Below are positions 8,514 to 16,244 of a stretch of DNA of 64,000 nt, one piece after another. The notes under the pieces were generated by a model. That model was not told where the DNA came from. It saw only the letters and a program-made list of their open reading frames with translations, and searched no databases. Position numbers and translations under genes: made by a program. Numbering within the stretch: the stretch's first letter is position 1; the number at the start of each line of letters is the position of its first letter. The DNA is from Haloterrigena gelatinilytica (GTDB lineage Archaea; Halobacteriota; Halobacteria; Halobacteriales; Natrialbaceae), in assembly GCF_013342145.1 (NCBI RefSeq), contig NZ_JABUQZ010000001.1, positions 744,001-808,000 on the forward strand, written 5' to 3'.

Positions 8514-8841
8514 TATCCGCCTCGCCCTGACGGCGAGGTGTTCAGTGTGGAACCGTAGGCGACTCCGCGTCCGACTCGTTTGTCCAGACGAGACGCGCGG
8601 TGGTCCTCAGCGACGCGTTCATTCTTCGCGACTTCCGCGCCCGTTCGCCCGCGCTCTACACTTCACGCTTCGAATCTCGTCTGCTGTGTCGCTCGGCGCT
8701 GAGACCGCTCCCACCCGATTGATAAGGACAATATTAAAATAGTAGTTTTTATTAACATAGTCTTTCGAGTTCACAACCAGATGCATCCGAATCGGATCCG
8801 TGTTCACGAGACGACGAATCGAGAATTCGACCAAAGTGTTC
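8514..8841. other. AT-rich intergenic stretch upstream of the ABC operon
   Basis: No gene is supported. The part from about 8722 to 8850 is far richer in A+T than the neighbourhood (for example ATATTAAAATAGTAG and TTTTTATTAAC) and probably holds promoter and regulator sites for the operon that begins at 9081. Confidence 0.5.
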
Positions 8842-8849
8842 AATATAAT
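8842..8849 (+). promoter_or_regulatory. Probable TATA box of the ABC transporter operon
   Basis: The AATATAAT segment is the best TATA-like sequence before the operon. A transcript from it would start near 8875 and have a leader of about 200 nt before ATG 9081. Confidence 0.45.
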
Positions 8850-8858
8850 CAGGTGAAG

Positions 8859-8872
8859 TTTAGTTAACTAAA
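8859..8872. promoter_or_regulatory. Perfect 14-bp palindrome, operator-like
   Basis: TTTAGTTAACTAAA is a perfect palindrome placed between the TATA-like box and the predicted transcript start, which is where a repressor would block initiation. The half-sites TTAG and CTAA spaced by four bases resemble sites of DtxR/MntR-type metal regulators in general form. The regulator is not identified. Confidence 0.5.
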
Positions 8873-8964
8873 GTGGATTTGATCACCGTGTCAATCGACG
8901 CAGCGCGACTCGAGGAAGCCAACGCGACGCGGCGGTCGCGACGAGAGACGGCTCCGTCGTGTCC

Positions 8965-9010
8965 CGTGCCGCCGATTCGGGGTTGGGGCCGACCGCCGAA
9001 CGGCGGCACG
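8965..9010 (+). promoter_or_regulatory. Leader stem-loop before dppB-like gene
   Basis: Inverted repeats CGTGCCGCCG (8965-8974) and CGGCGGCACG (9001-9010) pair over 10 bp, and after one bulged A (8975) the inner arms TTCGG (8976-8980) and CCGAA (8996-9000) add 5 bp. A 15-nt loop remains. It lies 70 nt before the first permease start. It could be a regulatory RNA structure or an attenuator. Confidence 0.45.
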
Positions 9011-9080
9011 TCCGCAACGCTCACGTCCCGGCGATCGACTAGTCGTTCGAAACCCTCGTCCTCGAGCGCCGGAGACTGAG

Positions 9081-10034
9081 ATGATACGAGCCCTCCTCGC
9101 CCGACTCGGATCGCTCGCGGCGGTCATGGCGACCGTCTCGTTCGTCACGTTCGGCTTCGTCTCCCTCACGCCCGGCGATCCGGCGTACACGATCCTCCGA
9201 GAGCAGCGACAGAGCCCGCCGTCGGAGCGCGAGGTCGCGGCCTTCCGCGCCGAACACGGGTTCGACGAGCCGTTCGTCGTCCGCTATCTCTCGTGGCTCG
9301 GCGACGCGGTTCGGGGCGACCTCGGGACGTCGTACTACCAGTCGGAACCCGTCACGTCGCTGTTGGTCGAGCACCTGCCGAACACGCTCGAACTCGCGCT
9401 GGCGGCGACGGCCGTCGCGCTTGTAGTGGCCGTCCCGCTGGGCGTCGTCAGCGCCGTCCACCACGAGACGTGGATCGACCGGACCGGTCAGATCGCCGCG
9501 CTGGTCGGCGTCTCCATGCCGAACTTCTGGCTCGGCTATCTGCTGATCCTCGTCTGCTCGCTCCGGCTCGGAGTGACGCCCGTCTCCGGCGCCGGCACGC
9601 TCTCTCACCTCGTGCTCCCCGCGATCACGCTCGGTACCGGGATGGCCGCGGTCATCACGCGCCTCGTTCGCGCGTCGATGCTCGAGGTCCTCGAGGCCGA
9701 GTACGTGACGGCCGCCCGTTCGAAGGGCGTCCGCGAACGGCTCGTCGTCTACAAGCACGCGCTGCGAAACGCGCTCGTTCCCGTCGTGACGATCGTCGGC
9801 CTCCAGTTCGGCTTCGTCCTCAACGGCGCCGTGGTCGTCGAAGTCGTCTTTCAACGACCGGGACTGGGAACGCTGCTCGTCGACGCCATCTTCGCGCGCG
9901 ACTATCCGATCGTGCAGGGAGTCGTCCTCGTGACGGCGTTCGCTTTCGTCGCGACGAACCAACTGGTCGATCTCGCGTACGTCGCGCTCGACCCGCGGAT
10001 CGAACGCGGCGGGGGAGGGAGCGATCGCCGATGA
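9081..10034 (+). CDS. ABC transporter permease, DppB/NikB type
   Basis: A 317-aa inner permease of a dipeptide/oligopeptide/nickel ABC importer. It has an N-terminal membrane anchor, the DppB-type periplasmic loop (LTPGDPAYTILREQ), about six membrane segments, and the binding-protein-dependent transport signature with the EAA loop (EYVTAARSKGVRERLVVYKHALRNALVP) that docks on the ATPase. The C-terminal FQRPGLGTLLVDAIFARDYPIVQG is classical for DppB. First gene of a four-gene operon; its TGA overlaps the next ATG by 4 nt. Which ligand is imported is not visible from the permease. Confidence 0.9.
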   Translation: MIRALLARLGSLAAVMATVSFVTFGFVSLTPGDPAYTILREQRQSPPSEREVAAFRAEHGFDEPFVVRYLSWLGDAVRGDLGTSYYQSEPVTSLLVEHLPNTLELALAATAVALVVAVPLGVVSAVHHETWIDRTGQIAALVGVSMPNFWLGYLLILVCSLRLGVTPVSGAGTLSHLVLPAITLGTGMAAVITRLVRASMLEVLEAEYVTAARSKGVRERLVVYKHALRNALVPVVTIVGLQFGFVLNGAVVVEVVFQRPGLGTLLVDAIFARDYPIVQGVVLVTAFAFVATNQLVDLAYVALDPRIERGGGGSDRR

Positions 10035-10960
10035 GTGACCGCGAGACGCAACGCCGTCGACCGACGCGCCGGCTGCGAGCGCTCCGCGAGCGGGGGCGAC
10101 GCCTCGTTCGGCGCCGGCTCGGCCGACGGTATCGATCGAACGGCAACATCCGGCTCGGCGGCGCCGTCGTGTGTCTCCTCGCGATCATCGCGGTCGTGGG
10201 TCCGATACTGTCTCCCTACGATCCGACGGCACAAGCGCTCGAGCGGCGCCTCGCGGGCCCGTCGCTCGCCCATCCGCTTGGAACCGACGCGCTCGGGCGC
10301 GACGTCGCGACGCGGCTGGTCTACGGCGCCCGGATCTCGCTCGCGCTGGCGGTCGGCGCGACGCTCGTTCGCCTCGTCGTCGGGACGGCGATCGGCCTGC
10401 TCGCGGCGACCGGGAACCGACTCGTCGACGCCGCGTTGATGCGGCTGGTCGACGTCCAGCTCGCCTTCCCGGGGCTCGTGCTGGCGCTCGTGATCGCCGG
10501 GACGCTCGGCCCGAGCATGCGCAACGTCGTGATCGCGCTCTCGGCCGTCGGCTGGGCCACGTACGCACGCGTCGTGCGCAGCAGCGTCCTCGCGGTCAAG
10601 GATCGGCCGTTCGTCGAATCGGCGCGGCTCTGCGGAACGCCCCGGCGACGGATCGTCACGCGGCATCTGCTCCCGAACGTCGTGAGCCCGGTGCTCGTCC
10701 TCGCGACGCTCAACCTCGGGACCGTCGTGCTCGCGGCGGCGGGCCTGTCCTTCCTCGGACTGGGCGCACAGCCCCCGACGGCGGAGTGGGGGACCATGAT
10801 CGCCGACGGCCGCAACTACCTTCGGTCGGCGCCGTGGCTCATCACCGCGCCCGGTGTCGCGATCGCGGTGACCGTTATCGGCTTCAACGTCCTGGGCGAC
10901 GGACTGCGGGACGTACTGGATCCTGATCACGTAGACGACGCGGATCGGAGGCGGACCTGA
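10031..10960 (+). CDS. ABC transporter permease, DppC/NikC type
   Basis: A 309-aa second permease. It has a very basic cytoplasmic N-terminus (about 40 residues rich in Arg), then the DppC hallmark (LSPYDPTAQ, and LGTDALGRDVATRLVYGARISL), about six membrane segments, and the EAA loop (VESARLCGTPRRRIVTRHLLPNV). The end, TFLGLGAQPPTAEWGTM-like (here SFLGLGAQPPTAEWGTMI), is also diagnostic. The start ATG 10031 overlaps the preceding stop. It pairs with the 9081 gene to form the channel. Confidence 0.9.
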   Translation: MSDRETQRRRPTRRLRALRERGRRLVRRRLGRRYRSNGNIRLGGAVVCLLAIIAVVGPILSPYDPTAQALERRLAGPSLAHPLGTDALGRDVATRLVYGARISLALAVGATLVRLVVGTAIGLLAATGNRLVDAALMRLVDVQLAFPGLVLALVIAGTLGPSMRNVVIALSAVGWATYARVVRSSVLAVKDRPFVESARLCGTPRRRIVTRHLLPNVVSPVLVLATLNLGTVVLAAAGLSFLGLGAQPPTAEWGTMIADGRNYLRSAPWLITAPGVAIAVTVIGFNVLGDGLRDVLDPDHVDDADRRRT

Positions 10961-10962
10961 TC

Positions 10963-13197
10963 ATGAACGCACCGCTCGAGATCGAAGACTTACACGTTCG
11001 GTTCAGTTCCCGGGCGGGATCGGCTCCCGTCCGTGCGGTCAACGGCGCGTCGTTCCGAATCGAACCCGGCGAGATCGTCGGTCTCGTCGGCGAGAGCGGC
11101 TGCGGCAAGTCCGTCACCGCGAGATCGATCGTTCGGATCGAGGAGCCGGGCGAGATCGTCGACGGGAGCATTCGGTTCGACGGTCGGGAGCTGACGACCG
11201 CCGACGACCGGACGCTGCGGCGGCTCCGCGGCCGGGAGCTCGCGACGGTCTTTCAGGACCCCTCGACGTCGCTCAACCCGGTCTACACCGTCGGCGAACA
11301 GATCGCCGAGGCGCTGCGCGTGCGCGACGATCCGGACCGGCAGCCGTTTTTCAGGGAACTGGCGCTCGGCGCGAGTTCGCGGCTCCGCTCGCGGGCGCTG
11401 CGATCGGACGTCCTCGAGTTGATGGAGACGGTCGGCATCCCCCGGCCGGCGGAGCGAATCGACGACTATCCCCACCAGTTCAGCGGCGGGATGCGCCAGC
11501 GAGTGATGCTCGCGATCGCGCTCGCTCGCCGCCCCTCGGTGCTGATCGCCGACGAGCCCACGACGGCGCTGGACACGACGACGCAGGCGGCGATCCTCGA
11601 GCGGCTCGAGACGCTCAACGAGGAGCGGGAGATGAGCGTGTTGCTGATCAGCCACGATCTGGACGTCGTCGCGGAGCTGTGCGACCGGCTCGTCGTCATG
11701 TACGACGGGACCGTCGTCGAACGGGGACCGGTCGACGACCTGCGGTCGAACCCGGCCCATCCCTACACGAAGGCGCTGCTGGGCTGTCTCCCCCGTCGGT
11801 CGAAGCCGGGGACGCGACTGCCGACGATCGACGGTTCGCCGTCGGACGGCTCTCGCCCGCAGAACGGCTGCGCCTTCGCCGATCGCTGCTCGTTCGCGCG
11901 GGAGGACTGCTATTCGACCGCGCAGCCGACCGTTTCGGTGGGTGAGAACCACACTGTCGCCTGTGGCGTTCCGGACGCTCGCGAGGCGACGCTCGAGGGG
12001 ACGGCTGCGAACGCGGCGACGGAACCGACGACAGGGTCGACGGTGACGGCGACGACCGCCGACACGGCGCTGGCCGTCGACGGCGGCGCGGACGCGCGGA
12101 CGGGCGAGCGCGTTCGACAGGGTGACGATCCGACGGACGGGGCGCCGATCGTCGAACTCGAGGACGTCGCGAAGTCGTTCCGGGGATCGGACGCGCTGCT
12201 CGATCGACTCCTCGGAACCGACGAGCGCGTGCCGGCCGTCGACGGCGTCTCGCTCGCGTTGCAGCCGGGAGAGACCGTCGGCCTCGTCGGCGAGAGCGGC
12301 TGCGGCAAGTCGACGCTCGCGCGACTGATCGCGGGCCTCGAAGAACCGACCGACGGCGCGGTCAGGCTCCGTGGGACCGCCGTCGGCGGCGTCGACGCGC
12401 GGACCGACGACCAGCGCGCCGAGATCGGCGTCGTCTTCCAGCACCCCGGCACGAGCCTCGATCCGAAGCGGACGGTCGGGGAGTCGATCGCCGAACCGCT
12501 GGTCGAAGCCGGATGGGGCACAACTCGGCGAGAGGACCGCGTCGACGAACTCCTCTCGCTCGTCGATCTCCCGCTCGAGTACGCCGACCGGTTCCCGCGT
12601 CAGCTGTCTGGCGGCCAGCGCCAGCGGGTCGCGATCGCTCGCGCGCTCGCGCTGGAGCCGTCCGTGCTCGTCCTCGACGAGCCGACGGCGGCGCTCGACG
12701 TCTCGACGCAGGCGACGATCCTCAACCTGCTGGCCGATCTCCGGGACGAACTCGGGCTCGCGTGCCTGTTCGTCTCCCACGATCTGGACGTCGTTCGCCA
12801 CGTCGCGGACCGCGTCGCGGTGATGTATCTCGGTCGTCTCGTCGAGGTCGGCCGGACCGAACGGACGCTCTCGAATCCGACCCATCCGTACACGGCGACG
12901 TTACTGGCGTCGCTTCCGGGCGACCGGGGCGACCCGGTGCCGACGGCGGTCGAGGATCGGGACGCGCTCGCGGGCGACCCGCCGAGCCCGACCGATCCGC
13001 CCGCCGGCTGTGCGTTCCATCCCCGCTGTCCCGTCGCCACCGAGGAGTGCCGTCGCCGCGAGCCGCCCCTCGAGGCCGTCGGCGACGGAGCGCCCGGGCC
13101 GCGCTCCCGGTGTCTGTACGCGCCGGAGTGGATCGAAGCGGGCGCAGACCCGCCGTCCGACGTCGATGCGCCCGATCTCGGGGTCGACGACGAATAG
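10963..13197 (+). CDS. Fused double ATPase of the DppD-DppF type
   Basis: A 744-aa protein joining two ABC ATPases that usually are separate DppD and DppF. Domain 1 has Walker A GESGCGKS (43-50), signature FSGGMRQR, Walker B VLIADEP, then an oligopeptide C-terminal (oligo_HPY) region with a cysteine set (NGCAFADRCSFAREDC). A Thr/Ala-rich linker of about 60 residues follows. Domain 2 has a second GESGCGKS (about 443-450), LSGGQRQR, VLVLDEP and a second oligo_HPY end with Cys residues. The Cys clusters in both ends may bind an iron-sulfur cluster, as known in some DppD-like ATPases. It starts 2 nt after the DppC gene. Confidence 0.9.
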   Translation: MNAPLEIEDLHVRFSSRAGSAPVRAVNGASFRIEPGEIVGLVGESGCGKSVTARSIVRIEEPGEIVDGSIRFDGRELTTADDRTLRRLRGRELATVFQDPSTSLNPVYTVGEQIAEALRVRDDPDRQPFFRELALGASSRLRSRALRSDVLELMETVGIPRPAERIDDYPHQFSGGMRQRVMLAIALARRPSVLIADEPTTALDTTTQAAILERLETLNEEREMSVLLISHDLDVVAELCDRLVVMYDGTVVERGPVDDLRSNPAHPYTKALLGCLPRRSKPGTRLPTIDGSPSDGSRPQNGCAFADRCSFAREDCYSTAQPTVSVGENHTVACGVPDAREATLEGTAANAATEPTTGSTVTATTADTALAVDGGADARTGERVRQGDDPTDGAPIVELEDVAKSFRGSDALLDRLLGTDERVPAVDGVSLALQPGETVGLVGESGCGKSTLARLIAGLEEPTDGAVRLRGTAVGGVDARTDDQRAEIGVVFQHPGTSLDPKRTVGESIAEPLVEAGWGTTRREDRVDELLSLVDLPLEYADRFPRQLSGGQRQRVAIARALALEPSVLVLDEPTAALDVSTQATILNLLADLRDELGLACLFVSHDLDVVRHVADRVAVMYLGRLVEVGRTERTLSNPTHPYTATLLASLPGDRGDPVPTAVEDRDALAGDPPSPTDPPAGCAFHPRCPVATEECRRREPPLEAVGDGAPGPRSRCLYAPEWIEAGADPPSDVDAPDLGVDDE

Positions 13198-13236
13198 CCC
13201 GACCGACCGACTTCCGCCCACGAACCCACCACCCAC

Positions 13237-14790
13237 ATGACACGCGACTCGCGATACGCTACGACCCGACGAACCGCGCTGAAGACGACGCTCGGAGCCG
13301 CGACCCTGTCCCTGACCGTCGCCGGCTGCCTCTCGAACGACCCCGACGCGGCCGACTTTCGGATCGGGACCCCGTGGAAACCGAACCGGGACCCCCTCGA
13401 CGGAGGCAGCGTGCTTCGCCGACTGGGGATCACCGAGGCGCTCGTCAGCGTCGACCACGACGCGACGACGGCGCCCGGCCTCGCGACCGACTGGGAACGG
13501 GTCGACGAGCGCCGGTGGCGGTTCGACCTCCGCGAGGACGTGACGTTCCACGACGGGACGTCGCTCGACGCGGCGGCAGCCGTCACGTCGCTTCGCCGAA
13601 CCGCCGACGCGACGGCGTTTACCGACGTTCCGATCGACGCGATCGAGGCCGAAGGCGAGACCGTCGTCGTCGAGACCGAAACGCCGTTCGCCCCGCTGCC
13701 GGCCCACCTCTCGCGCGACGAGGCCGTCATCCTCAGCCCGGACGCGATCGGCGACGACGGGTCGATCGAAGACCCGGTCGGTACCGGCCCGTTCGCTCTC
13801 GAGTCGTTTCGCTCCGGCGCCGAGATCCGAGCCGTTCGACACGACGAGTACCACGGCCGGGAGCCGTCGCTCGAGTCCGTCCGCTACGAGGTCGTCGAGG
13901 ACGACCAGACGCGCCGGATGAAACTCGAGAGCGGCGAACTCGAGATGGCTCGTATCCTCCCCCAGGAGACGGTCGACCCGCTCGAGTCCGACGACGATAT
14001 CGCCGTCCACACCTACGAGGTGCCGCGGATCAGGTTCCTCACGTTCGATACCGCGTCGGCGCCGTTCGACGACCGGCGCGTTCGACGAGCGGTCCACCGC
14101 GCGATCGACCGCGAGGCCATCGCCGAGTCGATTCTCGAGGGACTCGACGAGCCCGCGGTCGGCCCGTTTTCGTCGTCGATCACCGACTGGGCGAATCCGG
14201 ACGTCGACGCCGACGAGCACGCGGTCGATCCGGAACGCGCTCGCTCCCTGCTGTCGGACGCCGGCTGGACGACCGGCTCGAGCGACGTCCGCACCCGCGA
14301 CGGCGAGGAACTGGCCGTCGAGTTCCTCACCTACGACGCCAGGAGCCTCCCGCTGATCGCGGAGGCGATGCAGGATCACCTCGCCGCGGTCGGGATCGAC
14401 GTCGACGTGACGACGGTGGAGTACAGTTCGATGGTCGACCGCGTCAGCCAGGGCTCGTTCGACGGCTACCTCACGTCGTGGGGGACGTTCCGGTACCCGG
14501 ATCCGGATCGACTCACACAGATGTTTCACTCGACGGACGCGACCCTCCACCACGGCTACGAGAACGACCGGGTCGACGATCTGCTCGAGGAGGCCCGGGA
14601 ACTCACCGACCGGGACGCGCGACGCGAGCGCTATCACGAGGTCCAGTCGATCGTTCTCGAGGACGCGCCGATCGCGGTCCTGACGAACTTCACGAACGTC
14701 GTCGCCACCGCGGCCGACGTCGACGGATACGAGCCGCACCCGACGGAATCGCGGTACGGGCTCGAGTCGATTACGGTGGACGAAGAGTAA
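13237..14790 (+). CDS. Substrate-binding lipoprotein, family 5 (DppA/OppA/NikA)
   Basis: A 517-aa extracellular solute-binding protein. The N-terminus carries a twin-arginine motif (TRRTALKT) and a lipobox ending VAGC, so it should be exported by Tat and lipid-anchored. The family-5 core follows: TEALVSVDHD, LATDWERVDERRWRFDLREDV-like segments, VGTGPFALESF, and a mid-domain RRAVHRAIDREAIAE. It binds the ligand of the ABC importer, a peptide, a metal complex or nickel. Family 5 members with short N-termini such as NikA are of similar length. Last gene of the operon, 39 nt after the fused ATPase; it ends 40 nt from the convergent methyltransferase gene. Confidence 0.88.
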   Translation: MTRDSRYATTRRTALKTTLGAATLSLTVAGCLSNDPDAADFRIGTPWKPNRDPLDGGSVLRRLGITEALVSVDHDATTAPGLATDWERVDERRWRFDLREDVTFHDGTSLDAAAAVTSLRRTADATAFTDVPIDAIEAEGETVVVETETPFAPLPAHLSRDEAVILSPDAIGDDGSIEDPVGTGPFALESFRSGAEIRAVRHDEYHGREPSLESVRYEVVEDDQTRRMKLESGELEMARILPQETVDPLESDDDIAVHTYEVPRIRFLTFDTASAPFDDRRVRRAVHRAIDREAIAESILEGLDEPAVGPFSSSITDWANPDVDADEHAVDPERARSLLSDAGWTTGSSDVRTRDGEELAVEFLTYDARSLPLIAEAMQDHLAAVGIDVDVTTVEYSSMVDRVSQGSFDGYLTSWGTFRYPDPDRLTQMFHSTDATLHHGYENDRVDDLLEEARELTDRDARRERYHEVQSIVLEDAPIAVLTNFTNVVATAADVDGYEPHPTESRYGLESITVDEE

Positions 14791-14829: not shown

Positions 14830-15510
14830 TCATTTGGGAACGTCGATTCCCACGACGTACAGCTCTTGCTCCGGGTTCTCGCCCCAGAGCGTCGCGTCCA
14901 TCAGGGGTTCGCGTTCGAGCCGCTCGAGTCCGTGATCCGCGAGAAAATCGACCAGCTCACCGGGCGGCCGACCGCGGTACAGCGGCAGGTCGTCGTGGAT
15001 CTCCCGGTACTCCTCCCACGGCTCCGGGAAGTCCCAGTGACCCTCGAGGAGGACGATCCGGCCGCCGGGTCGGACGACGCGTCGCCACTCCCGAATCGCC
15101 TTCGAGGGGTTCGGTAGCGTCCAGATCAGGTGTCGCGCCGTTACCACGTCGTAGGCGTCGTCGGGAACCGGGAGCGCCTCGGCGTCGCCGAGACCGAAGT
15201 CGATCGACAGGCCCGCCTCTCGGGCCTTCGCTCGGGCGCGCTCGAGCATCTCGGGCGTGAGATCGACGCCCGAGACGTCGTGGCCCAACTCGGCCAGCAG
15301 CAGCGAGATCGTCCCCGTCCCGCAGCCGAGATCGAGCACGCGTCGGGGCGGGTCGCCGGTCCACCGTCGGAGCACCGCCAGCCACGCCTCGCGCTGCTCG
15401 TCGGCGCGGACGCCGGAGATTCCGTCGTCGTCGTACGAGTCGGCGCGGCCGTTCCAGTACCGGCGGACGACCTCCTTGACGTCCTCGTCGCCGTTCGACG
15501 AGCGCGTCAC
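14830..15510 (-). CDS. Class I SAM-dependent methyltransferase (type 11)
   Basis: A 226-aa small-molecule methyltransferase: motif I VLDLGCGTGTISLLLA, acidic loop VSGVDLTPEM, motif post-II (LGDAEALPVPDDAYDVV) and motif III LEGHWDF. Start is GTG 15510, which overlaps the TGA of the creatininase gene as GTGA, so the pair is translationally coupled. Substrate unknown. Its tail-to-tail position with the ABC operon raises the idea that it modifies a ligand the transporter carries (inference). Confidence 0.85.
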   Translation of the reverse strand: MTRSSNGDEDVKEVVRRYWNGRADSYDDDGISGVRADEQREAWLAVLRRWTGDPPRRVLDLGCGTGTISLLLAELGHDVSGVDLTPEMLERARAKAREAGLSIDFGLGDAEALPVPDDAYDVVTARHLIWTLPNPSKAIREWRRVVRPGGRIVLLEGHWDFPEPWEEYREIHDDLPLYRGRPPGELVDFLADHGLERLEREPLMDATLWGENPEQELYVVGIDVPK

Positions 15511-16244
15511 GACTGGGCGCTCCCTCCCGGTTCTCTCCCCTCGTCCCCGTCGGCGGACCGAACCCGCTCGAGGAACGAGACGAGCGCGTCGACGGCCGTC
15601 TCGAACACCCGTTCTCCCTGTTCGGGGGAGGCCTCGGTCGCGTCGCCGACCGCGCCGTTCTCGCTGAACTCGTCGGTGAACTGGCGGACGACCCCGCCGT
15701 CGACCGTATCCGCCCACGTCGCCGCGTCGCCGGCGACCGGGTCGCCGACGTCGTCGGGACGGAGATGGAGCAACACGGCCGTCTCGAGTTCGCCCGCGTG
15801 ACCGACGTGCTCGTCGACGGCGCGCATCCACTCCCACAGGTACGCCTCGCAGTCGATCGTGTCCCCCGCGGTCACCTCGCGGGCCAGATGGGAGAGCGTC
15901 TCGCCGTTACCGCCGTGGCCGTTGACGAAGACGACCGTCTCGACGCTCGAGTCGGCGATCGACTCGACGACGTCGCGGACGTAGCGCCGGAACGTCTCCG
16001 CGGAGACGGAGCACGTCCCCGGAAAGTTACCGTGGTAGGGGGCGATTCCGACCGGGATCGTCGGGCCGACGATCGACTCGGCGTCGCTCTCTCGGTCGGC
16101 CGCGTCGGCGATCGCTCGAGCGACGAACGTATCGGTTCCGACGGGGGCGTGCGGGCCGTGTTGTTCCGTGCTGCCGACGGGGAGCAGCGCGGTCGTCGGT
16201 GACGCCTCGTCCACGTCGGTCCAGGAACTCGTCTCGAGTCGCAT
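15507..16244 (-). CDS. Creatininase-family amidohydrolase
   Basis: A 245-aa metal hydrolase. The defining metal-binding sequence GSTEQHGPHAPVGTD (Glu, His, Asp) lies near residues 23-37, and the HGGNGE motif with its Glu is near 109-114. Known relatives hydrolyse creatinine, formamidopyrimidines (ArfB) or trim a peptide (MftE), so the family alone does not give a substrate. First gene of a two-gene leftward operon with the methyltransferase. Its promoter side is near 16244-16355. No mycofactocin precursor or radical SAM gene is in the window, so MftE function is not supported. Confidence 0.82.
   Translation of the reverse strand: MRLETSSWTDVDEASPTTALLPVGSTEQHGPHAPVGTDTFVARAIADAADRESDAESIVGPTIPVGIAPYHGNFPGTCSVSAETFRRYVRDVVESIADSSVETVVFVNGHGGNGETLSHLAREVTAGDTIDCEAYLWEWMRAVDEHVGHAGELETAVLLHLRPDDVGDPVAGDAATWADTVDGGVVRQFTDEFSENGAVGDATEASPEQGERVFETAVDALVSFLERVRSADGDEGREPGGSAQS

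Follow-up and report, generated by a model that had tools for sequence, protein, structure and literature searches.

The stretch of DNA analysed here (the window, 64 kb from a 4.55-Mb haloarchaeal genome) contains an operon at 9081-14790 with genes for two permeases, for an ATPase of two fused halves and for a family-5 binding protein. The permeases and both ATPase halves exceed the cut-offs of the curated NCBIfam nickel-importer models Opp2B, Opp2C, NikD and NikE, and in this the operon resembles nickel/cobalt ABC importers of the Opp2/Nik type. It differs from them in its binding protein, which does not reach the NikA-type cut-offs of NCBIfam (268.7 versus 600 and 193.1 versus 393 bits), and the regulon context described below points to cobalt/B12. 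The start of nikC/dppC and the stop of nikB share an ATGA overlap. The features of the operon and of the region before it are as follows.

8738..8756, plus strand: AT-rich element AATAGTAGTTTTTATTAAC, lying some 120 bp upstream of the operator
8842..8849, plus strand: TATA-like box AATATAAT by direct reading; relatives have TTTACAA (logo, 29 orthologs)
8859..8872, no strand: operator-like perfect 14-bp palindrome TTTAGTTAACTAAA, general form TT-N4-TA-N4-AA
8879..8881, plus strand: TTG at operator+20, a possible initiator or alternative start codon
8888..9079, plus strand: leader ORF (uORF), GTG start, 63 aa, TGA stop at 9077-9079
8965..9010, plus strand: 10+5 bp stem-loop inside the uORF, found in this genus only, with 0 compensatory changes
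9081..10034, plus strand: nikB/dppB-like permease, passing NCBIfam Opp2B 'nickel ABC transporter permease' (394.9 bits versus cut-off 350)
10031..10960, plus strand: nikC/dppC-like permease (Opp2C, 312 bits versus cut-off 300)
10963..13197, plus strand: fused double ATPase, with the NikD and NikE models both over their cut-offs
13237..14790, plus strand: family-5 solute-binding lipoprotein, NikA/DppA-like, under every NCBIfam cut-off

Genes for a class I methyltransferase (14830-15594) and a creatininase-family protein (15507-16244) adjoin the operon on the minus strand. By clustering, the methyltransferase recurs near the operon in 9/35 loci and the creatininase-family protein in 14/35; in two genomes the methyltransferase gene follows the operon in the same direction.

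A conserved promoter block before nikB

The preliminary description placed a TATA-like box with a palindrome directly downstream ahead of this operon, and both are present as claimed. The palindrome is conserved, being identical in 4/4 congeners with the same promoter form while the flanks differ. Palindromes of 14 bp are not rare (the 64-kb window has 19), and one arises in 97/2000 dinucleotide shuffles of 8701-9080 and in 16/5000 shuffles of 8842-8890; this one stands above chance because of its position and conservation. The proposed search for it elsewhere in the genome returned one perfect copy. All other sites carry 3 mismatches, and sites with at most 3 mismatches number 8 per strand versus 28 per strand for a reversed control pattern. 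With a single perfect copy and a remainder below control, we rejected the palindrome as a multi-copy site of the window genome.

A protein search of 125 family genomes yielded 35 nikB matches in 34 genomes, and all 35 upstream regions were read. An element related to that of the window is present at 32/35 of these loci; the element-free loci left out of the 32 are the second copy of G136, the locus of G082 and that of G018, whose nikB is an ortholog (77%). After three near-duplicates had been dropped, a logo of the remaining 29 gave the common block AAA-n-CCGAAG-n-TTTACAA-N6-TTTCASTA-N4-AA-N6-TT(G). The operator positions that vary least form the pattern TT-N4-TA-N4-AA, with TT and AA at its two ends and TA at its centre, and the fullest operator form seen is the perfect palindrome TTTCAGTACTGAAA. 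At operator+20, TT occurs in 29/29 orthologs and G in 25/29.

In the nik promoter of the window genus TTTACAA has been lost and the palindrome reads TTTAGTTAACTAAA, while the cbtB promoters of the same genus keep TTTACAA-N6-TT-N4-TA-N4-AA with different intervening letters. The window site retains TT-N4-TA-N4-AA and the TTG at +20. The full element TTTACAA-N6-TTTCASTA-N4-AA-N6-TTG has 0 matches at up to 2 mismatches in the window genome. The window genus shows the most changed, divergent form of the family element, and we place the window palindrome in a set of cobalt/B12 elements (see below) by orthology and position, not by letters. This divides the earlier suggestion of metal-regulator half-sites: the metal link holds up, in that the element is common to cobalt/B12 genes in related genomes, and the TTAG/CTAA letters as such do not, being found among orthologs in the window genus only, where the family form is TTTCASTA...AA.

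The leader stem-loop is restricted to one genus

The 10+5 bp stem-loop at 8965-9010, about 70 nt before dppB, is also present as described. Its arms are CGTGCCGCCG (5′, 8965-8974) and CGGCGGCACG (3′, 9001-9010), the inner stem is TTCGG/CCGAA with one bulged A, and 70 nt separate the stem end from the ATG at 9081. Together with leader folding that is moderately better than that of shuffles (z -2.34), the stem would suit an untranslated structured leader, that is, a riboswitch or attenuator that senses a metal or cofactor. The covariation test proposed for such a leader fails. Among the 15 stem pairs in four congener sequences, 10 are invariant, 2 have changes on a single side, 3 fail to pair in one or more of the species and 0 show compensatory changes on both sides (two of the four aligned rows begin 20 nt late at the 5′ end, with the stem columns intact). 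Rfam gave no match of note for the leader, just a chance match elsewhere that stays under the threshold; beyond the genus the leader keeps neither its sequence nor its length; and the stem sits within an ORF. With neither compensatory changes nor an Rfam match, and with the stem limited to the genus, we rejected a riboswitch or attenuator, which we consider the least probable of the explanations weighed here. Of the two levels of control envisaged earlier, the operator level is supported and the RNA-structure level is not; a translational level is possible in the form of a coupled ORF.

A small ORF spans the leader and ends at nikB

The supposed untranslated leader is probably a small ORF that runs from the start of the message to the start of nikB. 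From its GTG the uORF encodes 63 aa, or 66 aa from the alternative start TTG at 8879, and its TGA ends 1 nt before the nikB/dppB ATG at 9081. The stop thus falls within the few nucleotides of the next start that are taken to mark termination-reinitiation coupling, with a spacing of +1 in the window.

The same arrangement recurs among the 32 orthologs. With the start codon sought at operator+20 to +32, ATG being preferred to GTG and GTG to TTG, the uORF ends -4 to +10 nt from nikB in 30/32, where 3.05 are expected (1000 dinucleotide shuffles each); the operator was located with a by-eye consensus, the -4 to +10 range was picked after the data had been seen, and the shuffle tail probability is overstated by the kinship of the relatives. 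When any start codon in operator+20 to +32 is accepted, 31/32 uORFs end at nikB, compared with 4/65 in other frames. The one locus that fails both start rules, in G079, has ATT where others carry ATG. Leaders range from 92 to 256 nt among the 32 nikB-class loci. Since lengths, frames and stop contexts vary, many separate events must lie behind the pattern despite kinship.

The window uORF would start at GTG or TTG instead of ATG. Changing AUG to GUG or UUG abolished translation in the one leaderless mRNA for which PMC4983044 reports the test; the same paper counts 118 native leaderless GUG transcripts.

The element precedes cobalt and B12 genes

At up to 2 mismatches the element occurs in 81/125 family genomes, and a backwards-pattern control in 0. 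Merging sites with identical first 60 nt left 92 distinct non-nikB sites, two of which are both strands of one place; the nikA site G013:C13 lies outside the 92 and was read separately. More than half (49/92) precede cbtBA (CbtB PF09489, CbtA PF09490) and 17 precede nikA-like binding-protein genes. Two lie before an adenosylcobalamin-dependent ribonucleotide reductase gene (NrdJ_Z, 727.6 bits versus 399.95), one before BluB (265.9 versus 150) and two before nikB-like remnants. The other 21 include 11 sites before a gene of 2Fe-2S ferredoxin type, which at other loci comes after cbtBA, the ferredoxin name resting on sub-cut-off matches. The element is best read as a cobalt/B12 operator.

Some sites have features of their own. 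The element stands about 150 nt before the B12-dependent ribonucleotide reductase gene in G022 and G119, with no start codon at operator+24; in G005 and G111 it is followed by broken or partial nikB-like sequence, an apparent operon remnant; and at G022:C1:3104268 it precedes a gene for a Peripla_BP_2 lipoprotein, possibly corrinoid- or siderophore-binding.

No regulator emerged from the neighbourhood, where none of the 13 families in at least 4 of the 35 loci is regulator-like by eye. A NikR-like protein beside cobW was set aside as the regulator, since its relatives occur in 125/125 genomes and co-occurrence is uninformative. The window genome has three NikR_C loci outside the window, one beside a cobW-like GTPase gene and another next to a sequence that weakly matches a nickel/cobalt efflux model.

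The start of cbtB lies at operator+24 in 43/49 sites and at +23 in 6/49, and most nik uORFs begin at this offset or beside it. Because cbtB encodes a real small protein, its offset calibrates where translation would begin on a promoter of this type; starts at +23/+24 leave no room for a long 5′ UTR, provided that the TATA box acts at the usual distance. This geometry bears on whether transcription could come from another promoter, with the palindrome region a transcribed spacer. The AT-rich element at 8738-8756 is a candidate, possibly an upstream activator site or a second promoter, and roughly half of the 32 orthologs have a similar motif at operator-120 to -139, which, having been chosen by eye, does not test the idea independently. 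The conserved unit, however, is the operator-proximal block of TATA box, operator and start, which also stands at unrelated genes (cbtB) at a fixed distance to their start codons. We hold an origin elsewhere to be very improbable, only slightly less so than a structured leader.

The predicted uORF peptide diverges and the position of the ORF is kept

The nikB-class uORFs encode 19-77 aa without residues common to all, and Pfam gave no match for the two that were tested. In 15 close pairs the pN of the uORF exceeds that of nikB several-fold and is comparable to its own pS (pN/pS around 0.35-1.4), and changes fall about evenly over the three codon positions, compared with mostly third-position changes in nikB. 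Simple indels in close pairs measure 3 nt (G071/G073) and 123 nt (G086 versus G085/G090); the leaders of G003/G113/G118 are too diverged for indels to be judged. By these measures the uORF peptide evolves almost freely and selection appears to keep its position. Given a near-neutral peptide with frame and stop retained, what is kept would be a frame that stays open from a start close to the presumed 5′ end to a stop at nikB.

Two further readings give the peptide itself a role. The uORF could encode a functional, fast-evolving small transporter protein, as CbtB stands beside CbtA, with coupling a by-product. In its favour, cbtB occupies the same slot, encodes about 61-64 aa and overlaps cbtA by 1 nt (two loci read), and the uORF frame is kept open; the pN/pS values, the even spread of changes over codon positions, the variable lengths, the lack of shared residues and the absence of a Pfam match for the two uORFs tested make it unlikely. 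Alternatively, the uORF could be a regulatory leader peptide whose stalling or start choice responds to cobalt or cobalamin. The identified genes behind the element are mostly cobalt/B12 genes, as such a peptide would lead one to expect, but no residues are conserved that could form an arrest sequence or a metal site, and the same variation in ORF length speaks against it; we rate it lower than a transporter protein, as quite improbable.

Leader ORFs of other gene classes

Outside the nikB class the coupling pattern is weaker, and the nikA-first and ferredoxin classes are supportive, not decisive alone. At nikA-first sites the uORF ends -4 to +10 nt from the gene in 6/17 by script, or 7 including one by hand, against about 2.8 expected; two others end at +11, one at +314 and further ones at +25 to +55, and one is fused in frame to the binding protein. 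In six genomes of one genus a 48-51 aa ORF in this class ends exactly at -1. At ferredoxin sites the count is 5/11 by script, or 8 including three by hand, those 8 ending at -4 to +5, against about 3.6 expected, a result not significant by itself since -4 overlaps are common in shuffles. In G033 the leader ORF continues in frame into the binding protein, whose N-terminus it lengthens by 33 residues ahead of the signal sequence.

Scored in register against a profile of the 5′ end of cbtB, the ferredoxin uORFs reach a mean z of 2.86 (9 sequences), the nikA-first uORFs 1.42 (17) and the nikB uORFs 0.71 (26/32 long enough). Several ferredoxin uORFs can be recognised as the beginning of cbtB, as though these loci had shed cbtBA but retained its start. 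We claim cbtB homology for the ferredoxin class only; the slight score of the nikB uORFs may reflect base composition near starts.

Discussion

We think it likely that a leaderless coupling uORF behind a cobalt/B12-type operator delivers ribosomes to nikB; the 5′ end, the translation of the uORF, the coupling, the repressor and the metal are what we infer from the conserved arrangement. A putative metal- or corrinoid-responsive repressor would bind the operator, which would occupy the start region of the promoter from TATA box to transcript start, and would block the polymerase when metal or cofactor is plentiful. Judged by position, the transcript would begin within a few nucleotides of the start codon and have little or no 5′ UTR. 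Ribosomes would load on the 5′-terminal codon, translate the uORF (8888-9079), stop 1 nt before nikB and reinitiate there by termination-reinitiation. The uORF would then be a ribosome carrier, conserved in position and not in peptide.

Several published observations bear on such a leader. In H. volcanii, 72% of coding transcripts are reported as leaderless, defined as having 0-5 nt before the start codon (PMC4983044), coupling is described as requiring overlap or very short spacing (PMC10666635), and a review proposes that a short ORF may merely deliver a ribosome (PMC12548453). The nearest parallel is the leaderless coupled uORFs of mycobacteria (Shell et al. 2015, PMC4633059). Their stops likewise overlap or abut the next gene, the linkage is kept as the peptide diverges, and ribosome delivery is proposed. 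The present case is archaeal, is tied to one operator element and its regulon, has been followed through 32 orthologs whose leaders differ in length, and is described at the level of sequence. Leaderless coupled uORFs are already known in mycobacteria; the archaeal, regulon-linked form would be new, and we found no description of the element or the arrangement in the open-licence literature.

Termination-reinitiation in Haloferax volcanii (PMC6728339, PMC10666635) is similar in its stop-start spacings of -4, -1 or a few nucleotides; the cases given there are native gene pairs, whereas here a sequence-free leader ORF takes the first place. Among 97 long H. volcanii leaders, 16 are reported to contain small ORFs, which encode 15-31 aa and in one case precede a dppA gene (PMC4983044); those lie within long UTRs, and the one described here appears to be 5′-terminal and to fill the leader. 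CbtBA operons share the promoter/operator element and the start-codon offset, with cbtB in the place of the uORF; cbtB, unlike the nikB uORF, codes for a conserved protein.

A broader proposal, which we advance tentatively and think somewhat more apt to fail than to hold, is that the promoter of the haloarchaeal cobalt/B12 regulon compels translation to begin at the 5′ end of the mRNA. Operons behind it would then need either a real small first protein such as CbtB or a sequence-free 'adaptor' ORF, selected solely for staying open and for stopping on the next start; where ferredoxin operons have lost cbtBA, the adaptor would be a decayed cbtB 5′ end, so that gene loss would have created coupling uORFs.

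If the coupling reading is correct, these operons would offer a natural comparative case of an archaeal leader ORF selected for position and not for peptide, and a testable haloarchaeal cobalt/B12 regulon would have been named together with its operator. Where annotated starts predict a long leader in haloarchaea, a leaderless small ORF may lie concealed.
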